From: an uncultured Clostridia bacterium
Lineage (GTDB): Bacteria; Bacillota; Clostridia; Oscillospirales; Ruminococcaceae
Direction: 5' to 3'
Assembly (NCBI GenBank): GCA_946498095.1
Contig: CAMMMX010000006.1
Coordinates: forward strand, 1-64,000
DNA: 64,000 nt
Part shown: positions 1 through 60,796 of the stretch, piece by piece
Position numbering within the stretch: position 1 is the first letter of the stretch
Layout: each line of letters opens with the position of its first letter
Program-made: the position numbers and the translations under genes
The notes under the pieces: model-generated
Database searches by the model: none
Told to the model about the DNA's origin: nothing
What the model saw: only the letters and a program-made list of their open reading frames with translations

Positions 1-40
1 CAACTTCATTCTACCAGAGTTCTGCAAACCATGTCTTCTT

Positions 41-8490: not shown

Positions 8491-8685
8491 TTACGGTTTG
8501 CGAAACCGTATCATAGGGATTTCACCTCTGCCGGGTTCTCCGCCAGCCCCGTAGGGAAGTATCATTATCATTCTGACTGTCATCGCCATCTCGGAGGCAA
8601 CCCGAGTTTCAGGTCGGGGGTTCTCGCTGCGTCGTCGCAAGTTTCCTATCGCTCGTTTCCGTACAAACACGAAAAACTCGCTCAT
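8491..8685 (-). CDS. Small basic protein of unknown function
   Basis: A 64-residue Arg-rich frame starting MSEFFVFVRKRAIGNLRRRS. Its ATG sits behind a strong ribosome site (AAAAGGAGGAGCAGTGTA). I do not recognise a family. It lies within the conjugative-element relic, upstream of the ParB fragment on the same strand. It may be a leftover small element gene or a leader peptide. Evidence for expression is only the ribosome site. Confidence 0.35.
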   Translation of the reverse strand: MSEFFVFVRKRAIGNLRRRSENPRPETRVASEMAMTVRMIMILPYGAGGEPGRGEIPMIRFRKP

Positions 8686-54340: not shown

Positions 54341-56833
54341 ATGAAACAACGAGATTTTAATCAAAGTTACACGGAATTGGAGCTCGACTACATCGCTTTC
54401 CCCTTAGGGGGAATTGGCGCAGGAATGATCTGCCTCCAAGGAAACGGCGGTTTCGGCGGCTTTTCGCTGCGTAACGCTCCCGATGTGCACAGCGAGCCCT
54501 GCGTTTTCGCAAGCCTTTGTGTCAAAGGCGCCACACCCGTTGCGCGGGTACTGGAAGGACAGGTACCCAAACGTAAGGTGTACGGCGCTTTCTCCGGCGA
54601 TGCGGGCAACGGGCTGGGTGGACGCAGCTATGGCCTGCCTCGGTTCCGTAACTGCTCCTTTACGGCACGTTTTCCCTTCGCTCACTTGGATCTCTCCGAC
54701 AGCGATATCCCTCTTGAGGTGGGAATCGACGGGTGGAGCCCCTTTTCCCCCGGCGATGCAGATGCATCCTCGCTCCCCTTCGCGGCGGTGGAGTACACCT
54801 TCTGCAACACGTCGGATTCACCCGTCGAAGCGGTATACTATTTCAGTGCCTTCAACTTCATGAAGCTGGATGAAAACGCGTCTGTACAGCGTACGCACGG
54901 CGGCTTTCTGTTCCTCCAGCCCGGCAGCGAAGATGCCCCCTGGAAAGAAGGCGCGTGCTGTATCTCCGCTCAGGTACTCAATCACTCCAATGAAGACAAC
55001 CGCACGGATGCCGTCAACGTCGACCTTGCGTGGTTCCGCGGCGGCTGGTTCGATCCGCTGACACAGCAGTGGAATGCCATCAGCCGTGGAGAATCGATGG
55101 AAAAATCCTATCCTGACGGCGGTACCAGCGCCGGCGCAACGCTCTCGCTGCCGCTATTCCTCCTGCCGGGCGAAGAAAAGACGGTACGTCTGAGTTTCTG
55201 CTGGTATGTCCCAAAAACCAACTTGAGGCTGGGCGACGACCCTCTTCCTGCTGAAACACAAGAGGCGGAAGATCCTGCGTCCAGTAGCTGCTGCTCCTGT
55301 GGCTGCAAGCGCAAACAACCACCGTCTCAGGAAACTTATTCTCCCTGGTACAGCGCCCGTTTTTCTTCGGCTGAGGACGTCCGCACCTATGTAGATAGCC
55401 GTTACGCTGCGCTCAAGGAAGCCTCCTTGCGCTTCCGCGACGCTTTCTATGACACGACGCTGCCACCTGAAATTGTCGAAGCGGTCGGCGCAAACCTTTC
55501 GATCCTCAAGTCGCCCACCGTACTGCGACAAACAGACGGCCGCCTCTGGGGATGGGAAGGCTGCTGCGACTGTAACGGATGCTGCCACGGCTCCTGTACC
55601 CATGTGTGGAACTACGCCCAATCGCTGTGTCACCTTTTCCCCGCGCTGGAACGTTCCTTGCGTGGAGCGGAATTTTTTGAGAGCCAAAATGCCGAAGGGC
55701 ACCAGAATTTTCGTATCCCCTTGCCGATCCGGAAAGCCGACCACAATTTTTACGCCGCGTCCGATGGGCAACTTGGCGGTGTCATGAAGGTCTGGCGGGA
55801 ATACCGTATCAGCGGCGACCTTTCCTGGTTGCGTGATATCTGGCCGAAAGTCCGCCAAAGTCTCGACTACTGTATCCGTACCTGGGATAAGGAGAGACAG
55901 GGCGTGCTGACCCAGCCGCACCATAACACCTACGATATCGAATTTTGGGGTGCCGACGGTATGTGCAGCTCGTTTTACCTTGGTGCGCTCAAAGCGGCAA
56001 CGTTGATAGCGGAAGAGCTTGGAGAAAACGTGCCGGAATATGATGCGCTCTACCGCAAAGGACGCGCCTATCTGGAAACGCAGCTGTTCAACGGTGAATA
56101 CTTTTTCCAAAAGGTCACCCGCGTTGGTGCCGACGAAATTTCTCCCGGAGAGGATCTACCGCCGGAAGCAAGAGCGTTGCTTGACACCGAAGGTCCAAAG
56201 TACCAGTACGGCATTGGTTGTATTTCAGACGGTGTGCTCGGCGCATGGCTGGCACTGCAGTGCGACGTCGGGGAAATCTTGGATCCGGCTAAAGTAAAAA
56301 GCCATCTGTCCAGCGTCTATCGATACAACTACCGTGAAAACATGTTTGGTCATGCTAACCCGCAACGTCCCGGCTACGCCATTGGCGATGAAGGCGGACT
56401 TCTGCTGTGTACCTGGCCGCGCGGAGGCAAACCGTCACTGCCCTTCGTCTACAGTGACGAGGTCTGGACGGGAATTGAGTATCAGGCTGCGTCTCATATG
56501 ATCGCGATGGGGCTGGTAGAGGAAGGGCTGCAGATCGTCCGAACCCTACGTAAACGGTACGACGGCAGCGTCCGCAACCCCTTCGATGAATACGAATGCG
56601 GCCACTTTTACGCCCGCGCAATGGCGTCCTACGCTCTCTTAGAAGCATATTCGGGCGTGCGCTATGACGCTCCGTCGCGTACGCTTTACATTCATCCCGC
56701 TGTCCCCGGCGACTTCCGTAGCTTCCTGTGCGTGGAAGACGGCTATGCAACTGTCGGACTTTATCATGGGCAGCCTTTTATCGACGTAAAAGAAGGCCAT
56801 ATACACGTTGACCGCATTGTCTGCGATGTGTAA
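54341..56833 (+). CDS. GH116-family beta-glycosidase (GBA2-like)
   Basis: 830 residues without signal peptide. The N-terminal beta-sandwich domain starts FPLGGIGAGMICLQGNGG. A catalytic (alpha/alpha)6 barrel follows (about 370-800) with CCHGSCTHVWNYAQS, HHNTYDIEFWGADG (Glu 534, candidate nucleophile), GCISDGVLGAWLA and SDEVWTGIEYQAA. The family hydrolyses beta-glucosides and beta-xylosides, including glucosylceramide in animals. A Cys-rich insert, SSSCCSCGCKRKQPPSQ, around residue 311 is unusual and may bind metal. It is a single-gene unit near fucO. Confidence 0.88.
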   Translation: MKQRDFNQSYTELELDYIAFPLGGIGAGMICLQGNGGFGGFSLRNAPDVHSEPCVFASLCVKGATPVARVLEGQVPKRKVYGAFSGDAGNGLGGRSYGLPRFRNCSFTARFPFAHLDLSDSDIPLEVGIDGWSPFSPGDADASSLPFAAVEYTFCNTSDSPVEAVYYFSAFNFMKLDENASVQRTHGGFLFLQPGSEDAPWKEGACCISAQVLNHSNEDNRTDAVNVDLAWFRGGWFDPLTQQWNAISRGESMEKSYPDGGTSAGATLSLPLFLLPGEEKTVRLSFCWYVPKTNLRLGDDPLPAETQEAEDPASSSCCSCGCKRKQPPSQETYSPWYSARFSSAEDVRTYVDSRYAALKEASLRFRDAFYDTTLPPEIVEAVGANLSILKSPTVLRQTDGRLWGWEGCCDCNGCCHGSCTHVWNYAQSLCHLFPALERSLRGAEFFESQNAEGHQNFRIPLPIRKADHNFYAASDGQLGGVMKVWREYRISGDLSWLRDIWPKVRQSLDYCIRTWDKERQGVLTQPHHNTYDIEFWGADGMCSSFYLGALKAATLIAEELGENVPEYDALYRKGRAYLETQLFNGEYFFQKVTRVGADEISPGEDLPPEARALLDTEGPKYQYGIGCISDGVLGAWLALQCDVGEILDPAKVKSHLSSVYRYNYRENMFGHANPQRPGYAIGDEGGLLLCTWPRGGKPSLPFVYSDEVWTGIEYQAASHMIAMGLVEEGLQIVRTLRKRYDGSVRNPFDEYECGHFYARAMASYALLEAYSGVRYDAPSRTLYIHPAVPGDFRSFLCVEDGYATVGLYHGQPFIDVKEGHIHVDRIVCDV

Positions 56834-56948
56834 GTCTCATACAGAAGTATCCGGGCGTACCGGAAGCTGTTTCTTCCCTAACATGGTAAATTTATGTCGT
56901 TTTATACAGCGATTTCCTGATATATTTTAATATTTTTGTCAAAATGGG

Positions 56949-56977
56949 TTGACACGTGAAATAAAAAGTGCTAATAT
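56949..56977 (+). promoter_or_regulatory. Promoter of the first tandem unit
   Basis: TTGACA, 17-bp spacer CGTGAAATAAAAAGTGC, TAATAT. The spacer ends in AAGTGC as in the second unit. Confidence 0.75.
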
Positions 56978-56986
56978 ATAACTATA

Positions 56987-56999
56987 GGAAATATATTCC
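56987..56999. promoter_or_regulatory. Palindrome at the start site of unit 1
   Basis: GGAAATATATTCC, near-palindromic, 9 bases after the -10 box; the same motif stands in unit 2. Confidence 0.55.
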
Positions 57000-57200
57000 A
57001 AATTAACCAAACTTTTAATTAAGTATGATGATATTTGTACAATATTTTCCTATCCTCTTTGTAAAAAGAGGGGTCCTCGTTGTTTTTTGATTGCAGCAGC
57101 CGGCCCCGGGTGACTCCGATTCATTCGGGGTCAGTTGCTGTTATGAGCCAGGTTGTCTCTACGACCCGTCCGGCAAAAATGGCGCAATCATTTGATAAAC

Positions 57201-57236
57201 AATGCCCCCGCCCGAATGAAAACGGGCGGGGGCATT
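57201..57236 (+). terminator. Hairpin ending unit 1
   Basis: Perfect 14-bp GC-rich stem with an 8-base loop; only a discontinuous T-run follows. Confidence 0.65.
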
Positions 57237-57296
57237 TCGTTATATTCGTTTTTGTAAACACCTGTCGATACGCTTTGATACAATTCACAAAAGTAC

Positions 57297-57325
57297 TTGA
57301 CACGTACATATATAAGTGCTAGAAT
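57297..57325 (+). promoter_or_regulatory. Promoter of the second tandem unit
   Basis: TTGACA, 17-bp spacer CGTACATATATAAGTGC, TAGAAT. Confidence 0.75.
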
Positions 57326-57333
57326 GAAAACAG

Positions 57334-57345
57334 GGAATATATTCC
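57334..57345. promoter_or_regulatory. Palindrome at the start site of unit 2
   Basis: GGAATATATTCC, a perfect 12-bp palindrome 8 bases after the -10 box. Confidence 0.6.
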
Positions 57346-57406
57346 ATATCTGGTGTTAAATATGGACAAAATATCATTCCCCGCTCCGATCTTTTTTGTT
57401 GCAACC

Positions 57407-57450
57407 AAGCCCTTGAAGGACGATATTCCTTCAAGGGCTTCCTCCTTTTT
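57407..57450 (+). terminator. Terminator of unit 2
   Basis: Perfect 14-bp stem, 6-base loop, then a T-rich tail. Confidence 0.8.
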
Positions 57451-57769
57451 CAGCGCCTTCCACAAGAGACAAATCTGGAGATTTCGTTCTACCCACTCCT
57501 ATACAAAAACAATTAGCGCCTGTATAGACATCCACCTGTAAAATCCGGCAAGGAAGAAAAAGGCCTCTTTCCCGGGAAACATGAAACTATCCCCAAGGTA
57601 GAAAAGGTTTATAGATAAAACCTCTCTATGGTTTTTCACCCATTCGGAAGCTCTATCAGTCCCCTATCAAGAAAGTAACGGTTTCGATTCCACATCCAAC
57701 TTCATAGACGTAGCAAATCGAAATTTCTTAGAAAAGGATTCTCCTTTGGCTTCTGCCCTTAGGCTGCTT

Positions 57770-58288
57770 CTAGCGCTTTGCTATTTTGCCTGCTTCGATA
57801 TGCTCATCGATAAGCGCATCCAACGTTTCTACGTCACCTTCTATGATGCAGTCGAGGGGAAGTAGCACCGCCTGCATACTGCTTTGATAGATGTAATAAT
57901 TCTTCTTGGTTTTATACACGCGGTACACGGTTCCCCAGGAAAGAAAGCTCGACGCATTCTCACCCTGCGTCAGATGGACTCCTTCACCGTCTACGACAAT
58001 ATCCAACCGGCTGCCGCCAAGCAGTCGGTTGGTTTTGATTTGCCGGGCAACCGTGATGTGCATGACGACGAAAAACAATACAACATAAATAGCAAGGAAG
58101 ATGACACAGTAAAGAAAAGGCGTATAACTGCCGGTGACCGCTCCCAATATCCCGCTAATCACCAGAAACAGCGCCAACAGTCCCCAGAGGATAAATGTTT
58201 TCCGCGACCGGCGGAATGTATGGAAGAAATTGAGATCCATCAGACGTTTTTTATCCCAGTTTGTACAGAGCGTAACTTTTTGTTCCAT
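57770..58288 (-). CDS. YcxB-like membrane protein
   Basis: 172 residues. Two membrane helices (residues about 32-75: FILWGLLALFLVISGILGA, LYCVIFLAIYVVLFFVV) and a C-terminal domain (LDIVVDGEGVHLTQGENASS, SWGTVYRVYKTKKNYYIY) of the YcxB type, whose function is unknown. The stretch between it and recG holds the 78-bp repeats. Confidence 0.75.
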   Translation of the reverse strand: MEQKVTLCTNWDKKRLMDLNFFHTFRRSRKTFILWGLLALFLVISGILGAVTGSYTPFLYCVIFLAIYVVLFFVVMHITVARQIKTNRLLGGSRLDIVVDGEGVHLTQGENASSFLSWGTVYRVYKTKKNYYIYQSSMQAVLLPLDCIIEGDVETLDALIDEHIEAGKIAKR

Positions 58289-58427
58289 AGCATTCGTTCC
58301 TTTCTGTTCTCAAAATTCTCCCGGCTCCGACACGACACACCGCGTACAGACGCTTGGAAAACCGCCTTTGATTTGTCTGTGGTATGCATCGCACCACTAG
58401 GCTTAGCTCGGATGTCTCTGTCAACCA

Positions 58428-58602
58428 TACGCTGTTTGTACAGCGCGTGCTGGCACGTCGGCTCCTTCTGTTTGCTTGTACGCGTACTTTGGGCGGGCTT
58501 AGCCCAGAAGCTTTTGCAACACAATACGCTGTTTGTACAGCGCGTGCTGGCACGTCGGCTCCCTCTGTTTGCTTGTACGCGTACTTTGGGCGGGCTTAGC
58601 CC
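58428..58602. repeat. Two 78-bp direct repeats with internal palindromes
   Basis: Copies at 58428-58505 and 58525-58602 differ at one base, with a period of 97. Each copy contains, on the minus strand, GGGCTAAGCCC, GTACGCGTAC, GTGCCAGCAC and CGCTGT...ACAGCG. The right copy starts immediately after the recG stop codon. Confidence 0.9.
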
Positions 58603-58604
58603 GC

Positions 58605-60647
58605 CTATATCGTACCGCTACTGCGGAACATCCGATCAACGTTCTTTTTCAGTTGCGCGTTATAGGGACTTTCCAACTGCGGATCATCGTCAAGAATCCG
58701 CGCGGCGCAGGATTGCAATATCCCAAGCTCGCTTAGGTCGCCTAATGCATCCATTCCGGCAATACGCAGCGGCGGAAGACCGTGCTGACGACTGCCGAAA
58801 AAGTCGCCCGGACCCCGCTGACACAGATCCTCCATGGCAATGTCGTAACCGCTAGTCGTCCGGCACATCGTCCTAAGCCTGCGCAGCGTCTCAGGACTCT
58901 TGCTAGCCGTCTCCAAAATACAAGTAGACTGATACTGTCCCCTTCCAATCCTACCGCGCAGCTGATGCAGCTGGGACAAGCCAAATCGCTCGGCATTACG
59001 CACCAGCATAATCACCGCATTCGGTACGTCGACACCGACTTCTATTACCGTCGTGGCCACGAGAAGCTGTATGCGCCCCGCGGCGAAGTCCCCCATGACG
59101 GCTTCCTTTTCCGCTCCGGACAAGCGCCCGTGCAAAAGCCCAGTCGTATAACCCTCAAAGGGCCCTTTCGCCAACTCCTCCCGGTAGGTGCCGACCGATA
59201 CAAGTTCTGACTCCGATTCGTCGATGACCGGACAAACAATGTACCCCTGCCTCCCTTCGTCGAGATGGCGTCGGATGAAGCCGTAAGCGCGCTGAAGCTT
59301 GTCGGGACCAATTTTATACGTCTCGATGGGCTGCCTGCCCTGTGGCAGCTGGTCAATCACCGAAATATCCAAGTCGCCGTATAAGATAAGCGCCAACGAA
59401 CGCGGAATCGGCGTTGCCGACATGACCATCAGGTGTGGGTTTTCCCCCTTTTCCGCTAGTGTCGTCCGCTGTGCGACACCAAAGCGGTGCTGTTCATCGG
59501 TAATAACCAGTCCCAGACGCTGGAACTGCGTGTCCTTCTGCACCAGCGCATGCGTTCCTACGACAACGTCATAGGCGCCGGACGCAATCTGCTCCCGCAG
59601 CTGACGCTTCTTTGCTGGCGTCAACGCCCCCGTCAGCAAGCAAACCCGGATTCCCACCGGGGAAAGAAACTGTGTCAATGTCTTGAAGTGCTGTGCCGCT
59701 AAAATTTCCGTCGGCGCCATCAGCGCACACTGATATCCGTTTCGCACTGCAAAACAGCATATCGCTGCTGCGACTACCGTTTTGCCCGAACCGACCTCCC
59801 CCTGCACAAGCCGGTTCATCGGATAATCCCCCTGCATGCTTCCGGTACATTCCCCTATCACGCGGCGTTGCGCGTCGGTTAGTGCAAAAGGCAACGAGGC
59901 ATAGAAGGCATCGAGAGGCACGTCCTTCATCGGGCAGGCGGTACGGCTGCGGTTGGACTTTTTCAGCTGCAACAGCCCTAGCTGCAACATCAGCAGTTCT
60001 TCAAATGCCAGACGCTTCCGCGCCGCTTCTAACGCCTGCGCGTCCGCCGGGTAATGGATATTATCCAGCGCGTATTCCAGCCCGCAAAGCCCCTGCGCTT
60101 GTAAGAGTCCCGGCGGCAGCGTCTCTGGGATACGTCCACAGAACGTATCGAGCAGCCCCCTGATCAGTTCCTGCAACACCGACTGGTACAACCCCTCTGT
60201 GAGCGGATAAACGGGAATGAGCTTACAAGGGTCACCGTCTGGGATAAAGCTGGGGGACGCCATCTCCAGTCCTGTCAGGCTTCCCGTCACCTTCCCGTGA
60301 AAGGTGTAGGTTTTACCGACCCGCAAACGGTCAAATTGGTAAGAGGAGTTGAAGATCGTCACCGTGATTTCGCCCGTCCCATCCGCGATAATCGCCTTAT
60401 AAAGGACTAGACCACTGCGGATCAGCCGCGGCGTCAGTTTATTGAGCACCTTCGCCCGTACTGCACATACTTCCTGCGCAACAATATCCCGAATCTTTAT
60501 CGGCGATGTATAGTCGATGTAGCTGCGTGGGTACAGGTGCAAAAGATCTCCTACCGTATGTACGTCCAAACGCTCCAACAGCTTCGCCTTTTTCGGCCCA
60601 ATTCCTTTCAGTACCGTAACCGGCGACTCCAGCGTCACCTCCGCCAT
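58605..60647 (-). CDS. recG: ATP-dependent DNA helicase RecG
   Basis: 680 residues from MAEVTLESPVTVLKGIG (AGGGAGGGGAG at 6 bases; the longer frame has no site). N-terminal wedge/OB domain, then superfamily 2 helicase motifs: QGEVGSGKTVVAA, MAPTEILAAQH, VITDEQHRFG (DEQH), MSATPIPRSLAL, QLRGRIGRG. It remodels stalled replication forks. Follows yloV by 208 bases, typical Firmicutes order. Confidence 0.96.
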   Translation of the reverse strand: MAEVTLESPVTVLKGIGPKKAKLLERLDVHTVGDLLHLYPRSYIDYTSPIKIRDIVAQEVCAVRAKVLNKLTPRLIRSGLVLYKAIIADGTGEITVTIFNSSYQFDRLRVGKTYTFHGKVTGSLTGLEMASPSFIPDGDPCKLIPVYPLTEGLYQSVLQELIRGLLDTFCGRIPETLPPGLLQAQGLCGLEYALDNIHYPADAQALEAARKRLAFEELLMLQLGLLQLKKSNRSRTACPMKDVPLDAFYASLPFALTDAQRRVIGECTGSMQGDYPMNRLVQGEVGSGKTVVAAAICCFAVRNGYQCALMAPTEILAAQHFKTLTQFLSPVGIRVCLLTGALTPAKKRQLREQIASGAYDVVVGTHALVQKDTQFQRLGLVITDEQHRFGVAQRTTLAEKGENPHLMVMSATPIPRSLALILYGDLDISVIDQLPQGRQPIETYKIGPDKLQRAYGFIRRHLDEGRQGYIVCPVIDESESELVSVGTYREELAKGPFEGYTTGLLHGRLSGAEKEAVMGDFAAGRIQLLVATTVIEVGVDVPNAVIMLVRNAERFGLSQLHQLRGRIGRGQYQSTCILETASKSPETLRRLRTMCRTTSGYDIAMEDLCQRGPGDFFGSRQHGLPPLRIAGMDALGDLSELGILQSCAARILDDDPQLESPYNAQLKKNVDRMFRSSGTI

Positions 60648-60713
60648 GCCTCTCCCCTCCCTTCTCATGATTTCTCCCTCCACTGTGTCTGACACGTTTT
60701 CCCTCGCCGTTTT

Positions 60714-60796
60714 GGGGCTTTGCCCCAAGCTCCACTTCAGGATCTTTTTACAAAAAGCCCCTAAGAACCTTCTTGTAAGACAGTTCTCAAGTGGAG
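60714..60796. repeat. Intergenic inverted-repeat element
   Basis: GGGGCTTTGCCCC (60714-60726) is followed by CTCCACTT...AAGTGGAG (60730-60737 and 60789-60796) with CTTTTTACAAAAAG between. It resembles the palindromic repeat elements scattered between genes in some Clostridia. Confidence 0.5.

Follow-up and report, generated by a model that had tools for sequence, protein, structure and literature searches.

Intergenic trans-acting small RNAs of the RoxS/RsaE kind, known from Firmicutes, have a sigma-A promoter and an intrinsic terminator, measure 100–260 nt, expose U/C-rich linkers and lack any ORF preceded by a ribosome site. Where paralogous small RNA genes stand in tandem under a common regulator, they are adjacent units on the same strand, with a copied promoter and start element, and the bodies of such sibling RNAs are typically homologous. 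Operators placed over the transcript start, just past the −10 box, are known from autoregulated GntR-type genes, and 6S RNA (RF00013) is a stable, structured RNA of ~190–260 nt. The locus described here, in a stretch of 64,000 nucleotides from a gut-type bacterium, analysed as a whole (the window), contains two units that resemble each of these systems in part. They share with the RoxS/RsaE kind all the features listed above (the exposed linkers being predicted), but neither an Rfam match nor a relative was found for them. They are arranged like tandem paralogous small RNA genes, but their two bodies are not detectably homologous. The 12-bp palindrome just past the −10 box recalls the GntR-type autoregulated operators, of which this same genome offers an example (C20:28007), but its sequence, GGAAWWWWTTCC, is unlike the known operators in the papers searched. 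As for 6S RNA, the RNA of unit 1 is of comparable size and stability but lacks the end-to-end closing stem; 6S RNA was rejected at the locus, where RF00013 gave no match, and the 6S RNA of this genome is at C23:17816-18004. Most likely the units are small RNA genes, a known kind of element, and the RNAs themselves would be new.

Two tandem units in an AT-rich gap

The two same-strand units lie in the gap 56834-57769, which follows a GH116 glycosidase gene and ends at a YcxB-like gene convergent to the units (Table 1). The gap is AT-rich, with 27–50% GC in steps of 200 bases against 51% in the genome. The observation of two units, made in the initial annotation, was confirmed, and their promoters (TTGACA, a 17-nt spacer running from CGT to AAGTGC, an extended −10 box) are at the positions given there. 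An origin from a mobile element or phage was rejected, since the DNA of the units had no match in phages or plasmids and the flanking genes are ordinary chromosomal ones; nor are the units a dispersed repeat, because in the genome they gave self matches and chance matches only. Elsewhere in the window, the interval between the YcxB-like gene and recG (58420-58602) contains a tandem duplication of ~82–100 bases, 97.6% alike, with no other copy in the genome stretches examined, and the Rfam pemK RNA motif is found at 8511-8568 on the minus strand (69.7 bits).

Table 1. Features of the locus and of two further promoters of the genome.
Feature	Position	Strand	Description
GH116 glycosidase gene	54341-56833	+	Pfam DUF608 and Glyco_hydr_116N
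Unit 1, candidate small RNA gene	56949-57246	+	promoter, start element, terminator
Promoter 1	56949-56977	+	TTGACA at 56949, 17-nt spacer CGT...AAGTGC, extended −10 TAATAT ending at 56977
Start element 1, AGGAAATATATTCCA	56986-57000	.	candidate repressor operator where the transcript presumably starts; imperfect palindrome
Candidate small RNA 1, ~250–260 nt	56986-57246	+	start predicted from the promoter
21-codon hydrophobic ORF MMIFVQYFPILFVKRGVLVVF, inside RNA 1	57025-57090	+	without convincing ribosome site
Terminator hairpin 1	57201-57236	+	14 perfect pairs, T-rich tail
Unit 2, candidate small RNA gene	57297-57450	+	promoter, start element, terminator
Promoter 2	57297-57325	+	TTGACA at 57297, 17-nt spacer CGT...AAGTGC, extended −10 TAGAAT ending at 57325
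Start element 2, AGGGAATATATTCCA	57332-57346	.	perfect 12-bp palindrome at 57334-57345; candidate repressor operator
Candidate small RNA 2, ~119 nt	57332-57450	+	start predicted from the promoter
Terminator hairpin 2	57407-57440	+	14 perfect pairs, then CCTCCTTTTT
YcxB-like membrane protein gene	57770-58288	-	convergent to the units
recG	58605-60728	-	next after the YcxB-like gene
Third GGAA..TTCC promoter	C15:54200-54764 (L081:3201-3765)		TTGACA-17-TATATT AAAAACAGGAAATATTTCCATAAT, palindrome GGAAATATTTCC
C20:28007 promoter	C20:28007 (L181)		different palindrome, TGTGATATCACA, within a long inverted repeat, ttaagtgtgatatcacagatatcacacttaa, where the transcript starts

Promoter 1 matches the consensus at 10 of 12 positions and promoter 2 at 11 of 12, and in both a TG one base ahead of the −10 box makes it an extended −10. 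The promoter words common to both units exceed chance in the 64-kb window: TTGACACGT-N8-AAGTGCTA, searched with three mismatches allowed, has two sites, namely promoters 1 and 2, where 0.11 would be expected. A scan of the whole collection (84,980 species) returned these words at three places in genome contigs, differing in their genomic setting, and they recur in viral contigs as well; these sites are about as many as chance predicts, precede unrelated genes and lack the palindrome. For this reason the spacer words were rejected as a separate operator; they need none of their own, since the extended −10 is part of AAGTGC and unrelated genes are preceded by these words too, and a strong extended −10 promoter largely explains them. 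The HrcA/CIRCE operator, TTAGCACTC-N9-GAGTGCTAA, was rejected as well: the locus has TTGACACGT-N8-AAGTGCTA instead, and its likeness to that operator is limited to a half-site, which also contains the extended −10.

The palindrome at the presumed transcript start

Judged by their spacing from the −10 box, the transcripts are expected to begin at the A of AGGRAATATATTCCA or close to it, at 56986 and 57332. The two start elements differ in 1 of 15 bases. Palindrome 2, GGAATATATTCC, is perfect, whereas element 1, GGAAATATATTCC (56987-56999), is imperfect: it carries an extra base or, if aligned in the register of unit 2, a single mismatched pair. The palindrome follows the −10 box by 9 bases in unit 1 and by 8 in unit 2, and start element 1 lies two bases farther downstream of its −10 box than start element 2. 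The distance of 8–9 bases given in the initial annotation thus holds in both units. With one mismatch allowed, the palindrome occurs three times in the window, against 0.14 expected.

A survey of promoters covering 98% of the genome (TTGAC(A/T)-16..18-TANNNT) gave 302 sites, three of which have a perfect 12-bp palindrome 4–12 nt past the −10 box; applied as a control 100 and 200 nt farther on, the same test gave 0 and 1, respectively. The three are unit 2, C15:54200 and C20:28007. The promoter at C15:54200, downstream of gyrA, lies ~95 nt ahead of a 144-codon ORF with an AGGAGG ribosome site, whose product, with its signal-peptide-like start, is a secreted-looking orphan without a family match in Pfam or NCBIfam. 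The chance that any of the 300 other promoters has a perfect palindrome of the GGAA type is ~0.003, and rises to 0.16 where GGAA-N3-5-TTCC alone is demanded. Units 1 and 2 and C15:54200 share a symmetric site at a like promoter position, the copy of unit 1 being imperfect. Since the palindrome recurs ahead of a protein gene, it is not particular to the small RNA pair; this copy and the rarity among the 302 promoters point to a candidate repressor operator rather than to a mark of small RNAs. The C20:28007 palindrome, by contrast of different sequence, stands immediately upstream of a gene whose product, to judge by reading its N-terminal residues, looks like a GntR-type regulator, and its inverted repeat is likely an autoregulatory operator; a palindrome in such a place can thus have this role in this genome.

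On these grounds the GGAAWWWWTTCC element is probably an operator common to at least three promoters. This interpretation is weakened by element 1, imperfect and displaced by two bases. As in the initial annotation, we know of no operator with the sequence GGAAWWWWTTCC, and none matching was found in the papers searched.

A different role, which we consider unlikely and to which we give a lower weight than to the operator, is that the palindrome acts as RNA and not as DNA, either as a hairpin at the 5′ end against 5′ exonuclease or by a GGAA-UUCC pairing that folds the 5′ domain. In fact, the predicted folds of both units pair a distal AUAU..UUCC with the GGRAAUAU at the 5′ end, the fold beats chance when the start is fixed and the rest is shuffled (p 0.016 and 0.03), and an arm spacing of 5 versus 4 suits an RNA loop better than a protein dimer. 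However, the local hairpins, at −2.5 to −3.0 kcal/mol, are weak, the first 12 nt pair directly with the remainder at p 0.036–0.08, the specific long-range pairing reaches only p 0.036 and 0.074, and the C15:54200 site folds differently downstream; moreover, a 4-bp stem needs less than a perfect two-fold symmetry of 12 bp.

The candidate RNAs and their search in relatives

RNA 1 is predicted to fold into an AU-rich 5′ stem-loop, a hairpin at 57053-57072, a branched domain at 57088-57190 and the terminator, and RNA 2 into a 5′ stem-loop, a U-rich linker, CUCCGAUCUUUUUUGUU, and the terminator. Terminator-like sites numbered six, where shuffles gave 0.9. Compared with dinucleotide shuffles, the predicted folds have z-scores of −7.0 (RNA 1) and −5.6 (RNA 2), which become −4.6 and −1.7 when the terminators are removed; the strong values are therefore in part due to the terminators, and the stability of RNA 2 outside its terminator is not remarkable. 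A good ribosome site precedes no ORF in either unit: the one compact frame of RNA 1 is that of 21 codons, probably not expressed, and in RNA 2 no ORF closes. Each unit thus has what marks an intergenic small RNA gene, its own promoter and an intrinsic terminator (as consensus matches only) and no translated ORF. At curated thresholds no Rfam family matched, and relaxed thresholds gave chance-level matches only. The two RNA bodies, under several scoring schemes, gave alignment scores not above those of shuffles; an alignment by eye (TTTTTTG-TTGCA) looked good, but its scores were at shuffle level. The downstream 14-bp hairpins, the lack of an ORF with a ribosome site and the difference between the bodies, all described in the initial annotation, were therefore borne out.

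The search in relatives gave no convincing match to the DNA of the units in 40 relatives or in 397 genomes of the family. The DNA matches in G118, which by reading are a strong promoter at contig ends with the look of an rRNA operon, were discarded, and so were the remaining weak matches, which are AT-rich chance. A search of 298 genomes with a covariance model for the core of RNA 1, made from a single sequence, gave two weak matches (G297:C89 and G303:C12, 26–28 bits), neither reliable and both without the promoter-palindrome module. Conservation in relatives, suggested earlier as a check, was thus not seen at the level of other genera; the own genus is represented by this genome alone.

The promoter-palindrome pattern, searched in the same 397 genomes, returned palindromes other than that of the units. 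Such GGAA..TTCC sites, including those at genes of the two kinds that follow, were set aside as not evidently the same operator. In four species of one genus (L048-L051), the promoter of a 6-pyruvoyl-tetrahydropterin-synthase-like gene is closely followed by a conserved palindrome resembling ACAGGAAATATTCCTGT, which may be an operator or form a 5′ hairpin. In L072 (also L071, L073 and L074), a AGGAACGGTTCCT palindrome, conserved in one genus, follows the promoter of a rubrerythrin-like gene whose product starts with MAKFVCTVCGY.

That the RNA bodies are kept in none of the relatives searched would also be expected if the units were remnants, that is, leaders and terminators of genes lost between the GH116 and YcxB-like genes and transcribed to no purpose, and the same kind of start element does stand ahead of a normal protein gene at C15:54200. 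We regard this as doubtful: two promoters that are intact and strong, and two terminators of 14 perfect base pairs, are unlike products of decay, and the leftover reading frames tested had no Pfam match.

Very little speaks, on balance, for a pair like a type I toxin-antitoxin, in which RNA 1 would encode the 21-aa hydrophobic peptide (hydropathy 1.78) and RNA 2 would pair with the start of the peptide. Positions 57028-57047 of RNA 1 and 57358-57377 of RNA 2 are complementary at 16 of 20 bases, a value reached by 0.4% of shuffles, and the stretch spans the second of two start codons; but this is one of several comparisons and the bases are mostly A and U, the frame has no ribosome site, co-folding brings no gain over the separate predicted folds, the duplex energy is within that of shuffles (p 0.05–0.73) and the peptide has no match in plasmids. 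Equally improbable is that chance and the convergence of strong promoters made the units alike with no function common to both, as the chance-level recurrence of the spacer words at unrelated genes without the palindrome might suggest, because within 350 bp the promoter words are twice joined to the start element, and either one is expected ~0.1 times per window.

A possible three-promoter regulon

The best reading, to which we give about an even chance, is that of two orphan, co-regulated candidate small RNA genes with a common putative repressor operator, their start module having been duplicated. What was observed is the set of sequence features, how rare they are in this genome and a third copy of the palindrome; from these we infer transcription, a repressor and co-regulation. 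Two adjacent sigma-A transcription units would each give one short non-coding RNA ending at an intrinsic terminator. A dimeric repressor would bind the GGAA-(A/T)4-TTCC palindrome over the first transcribed bases (~+2 to +14) and stop initiation or promoter clearance, so that both RNAs and the mRNA of the secreted 144-aa protein could be switched jointly. The start module would have been copied once in tandem, and either joined to two different RNA bodies or diverged into them. As to the mode of action, our guess is that the exposed U/C-rich linkers may pair with mRNAs.

In favour of this explanation are the strong extended −10 promoters and the 14-bp terminators, in the same order and on the same strand, with no initiated ORF. 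Against it, the units have no homologue in the relatives searched, and the imperfect element 1, two bases farther from its −10 box, disfavours a strict operator. The earlier proposal of two small RNAs with a duplicated operator module is thus still the best one, with the correction that the palindrome is also present before the protein gene at C15:54200. A bolder version, in which GGAAWWWWTTCC would be the operator of an undescribed regulator whose small regulon would comprise the secreted protein and the two tandem small RNAs, members of a new family restricted to the genus and also able to pair with each other, seems to us distinctly unlikely.

If these ideas are true, a little-studied or uncultured lineage, assigned to the Oscillospirales kind from its gene content and relatives, would gain two small RNAs and a three-promoter regulon open to direct testing; current ideas on how small RNAs or repressors act would be unchanged even so. 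The lasting use of the finding may be as a lead, namely the putative operator of a regulator, which also marks the gene of a secreted protein.
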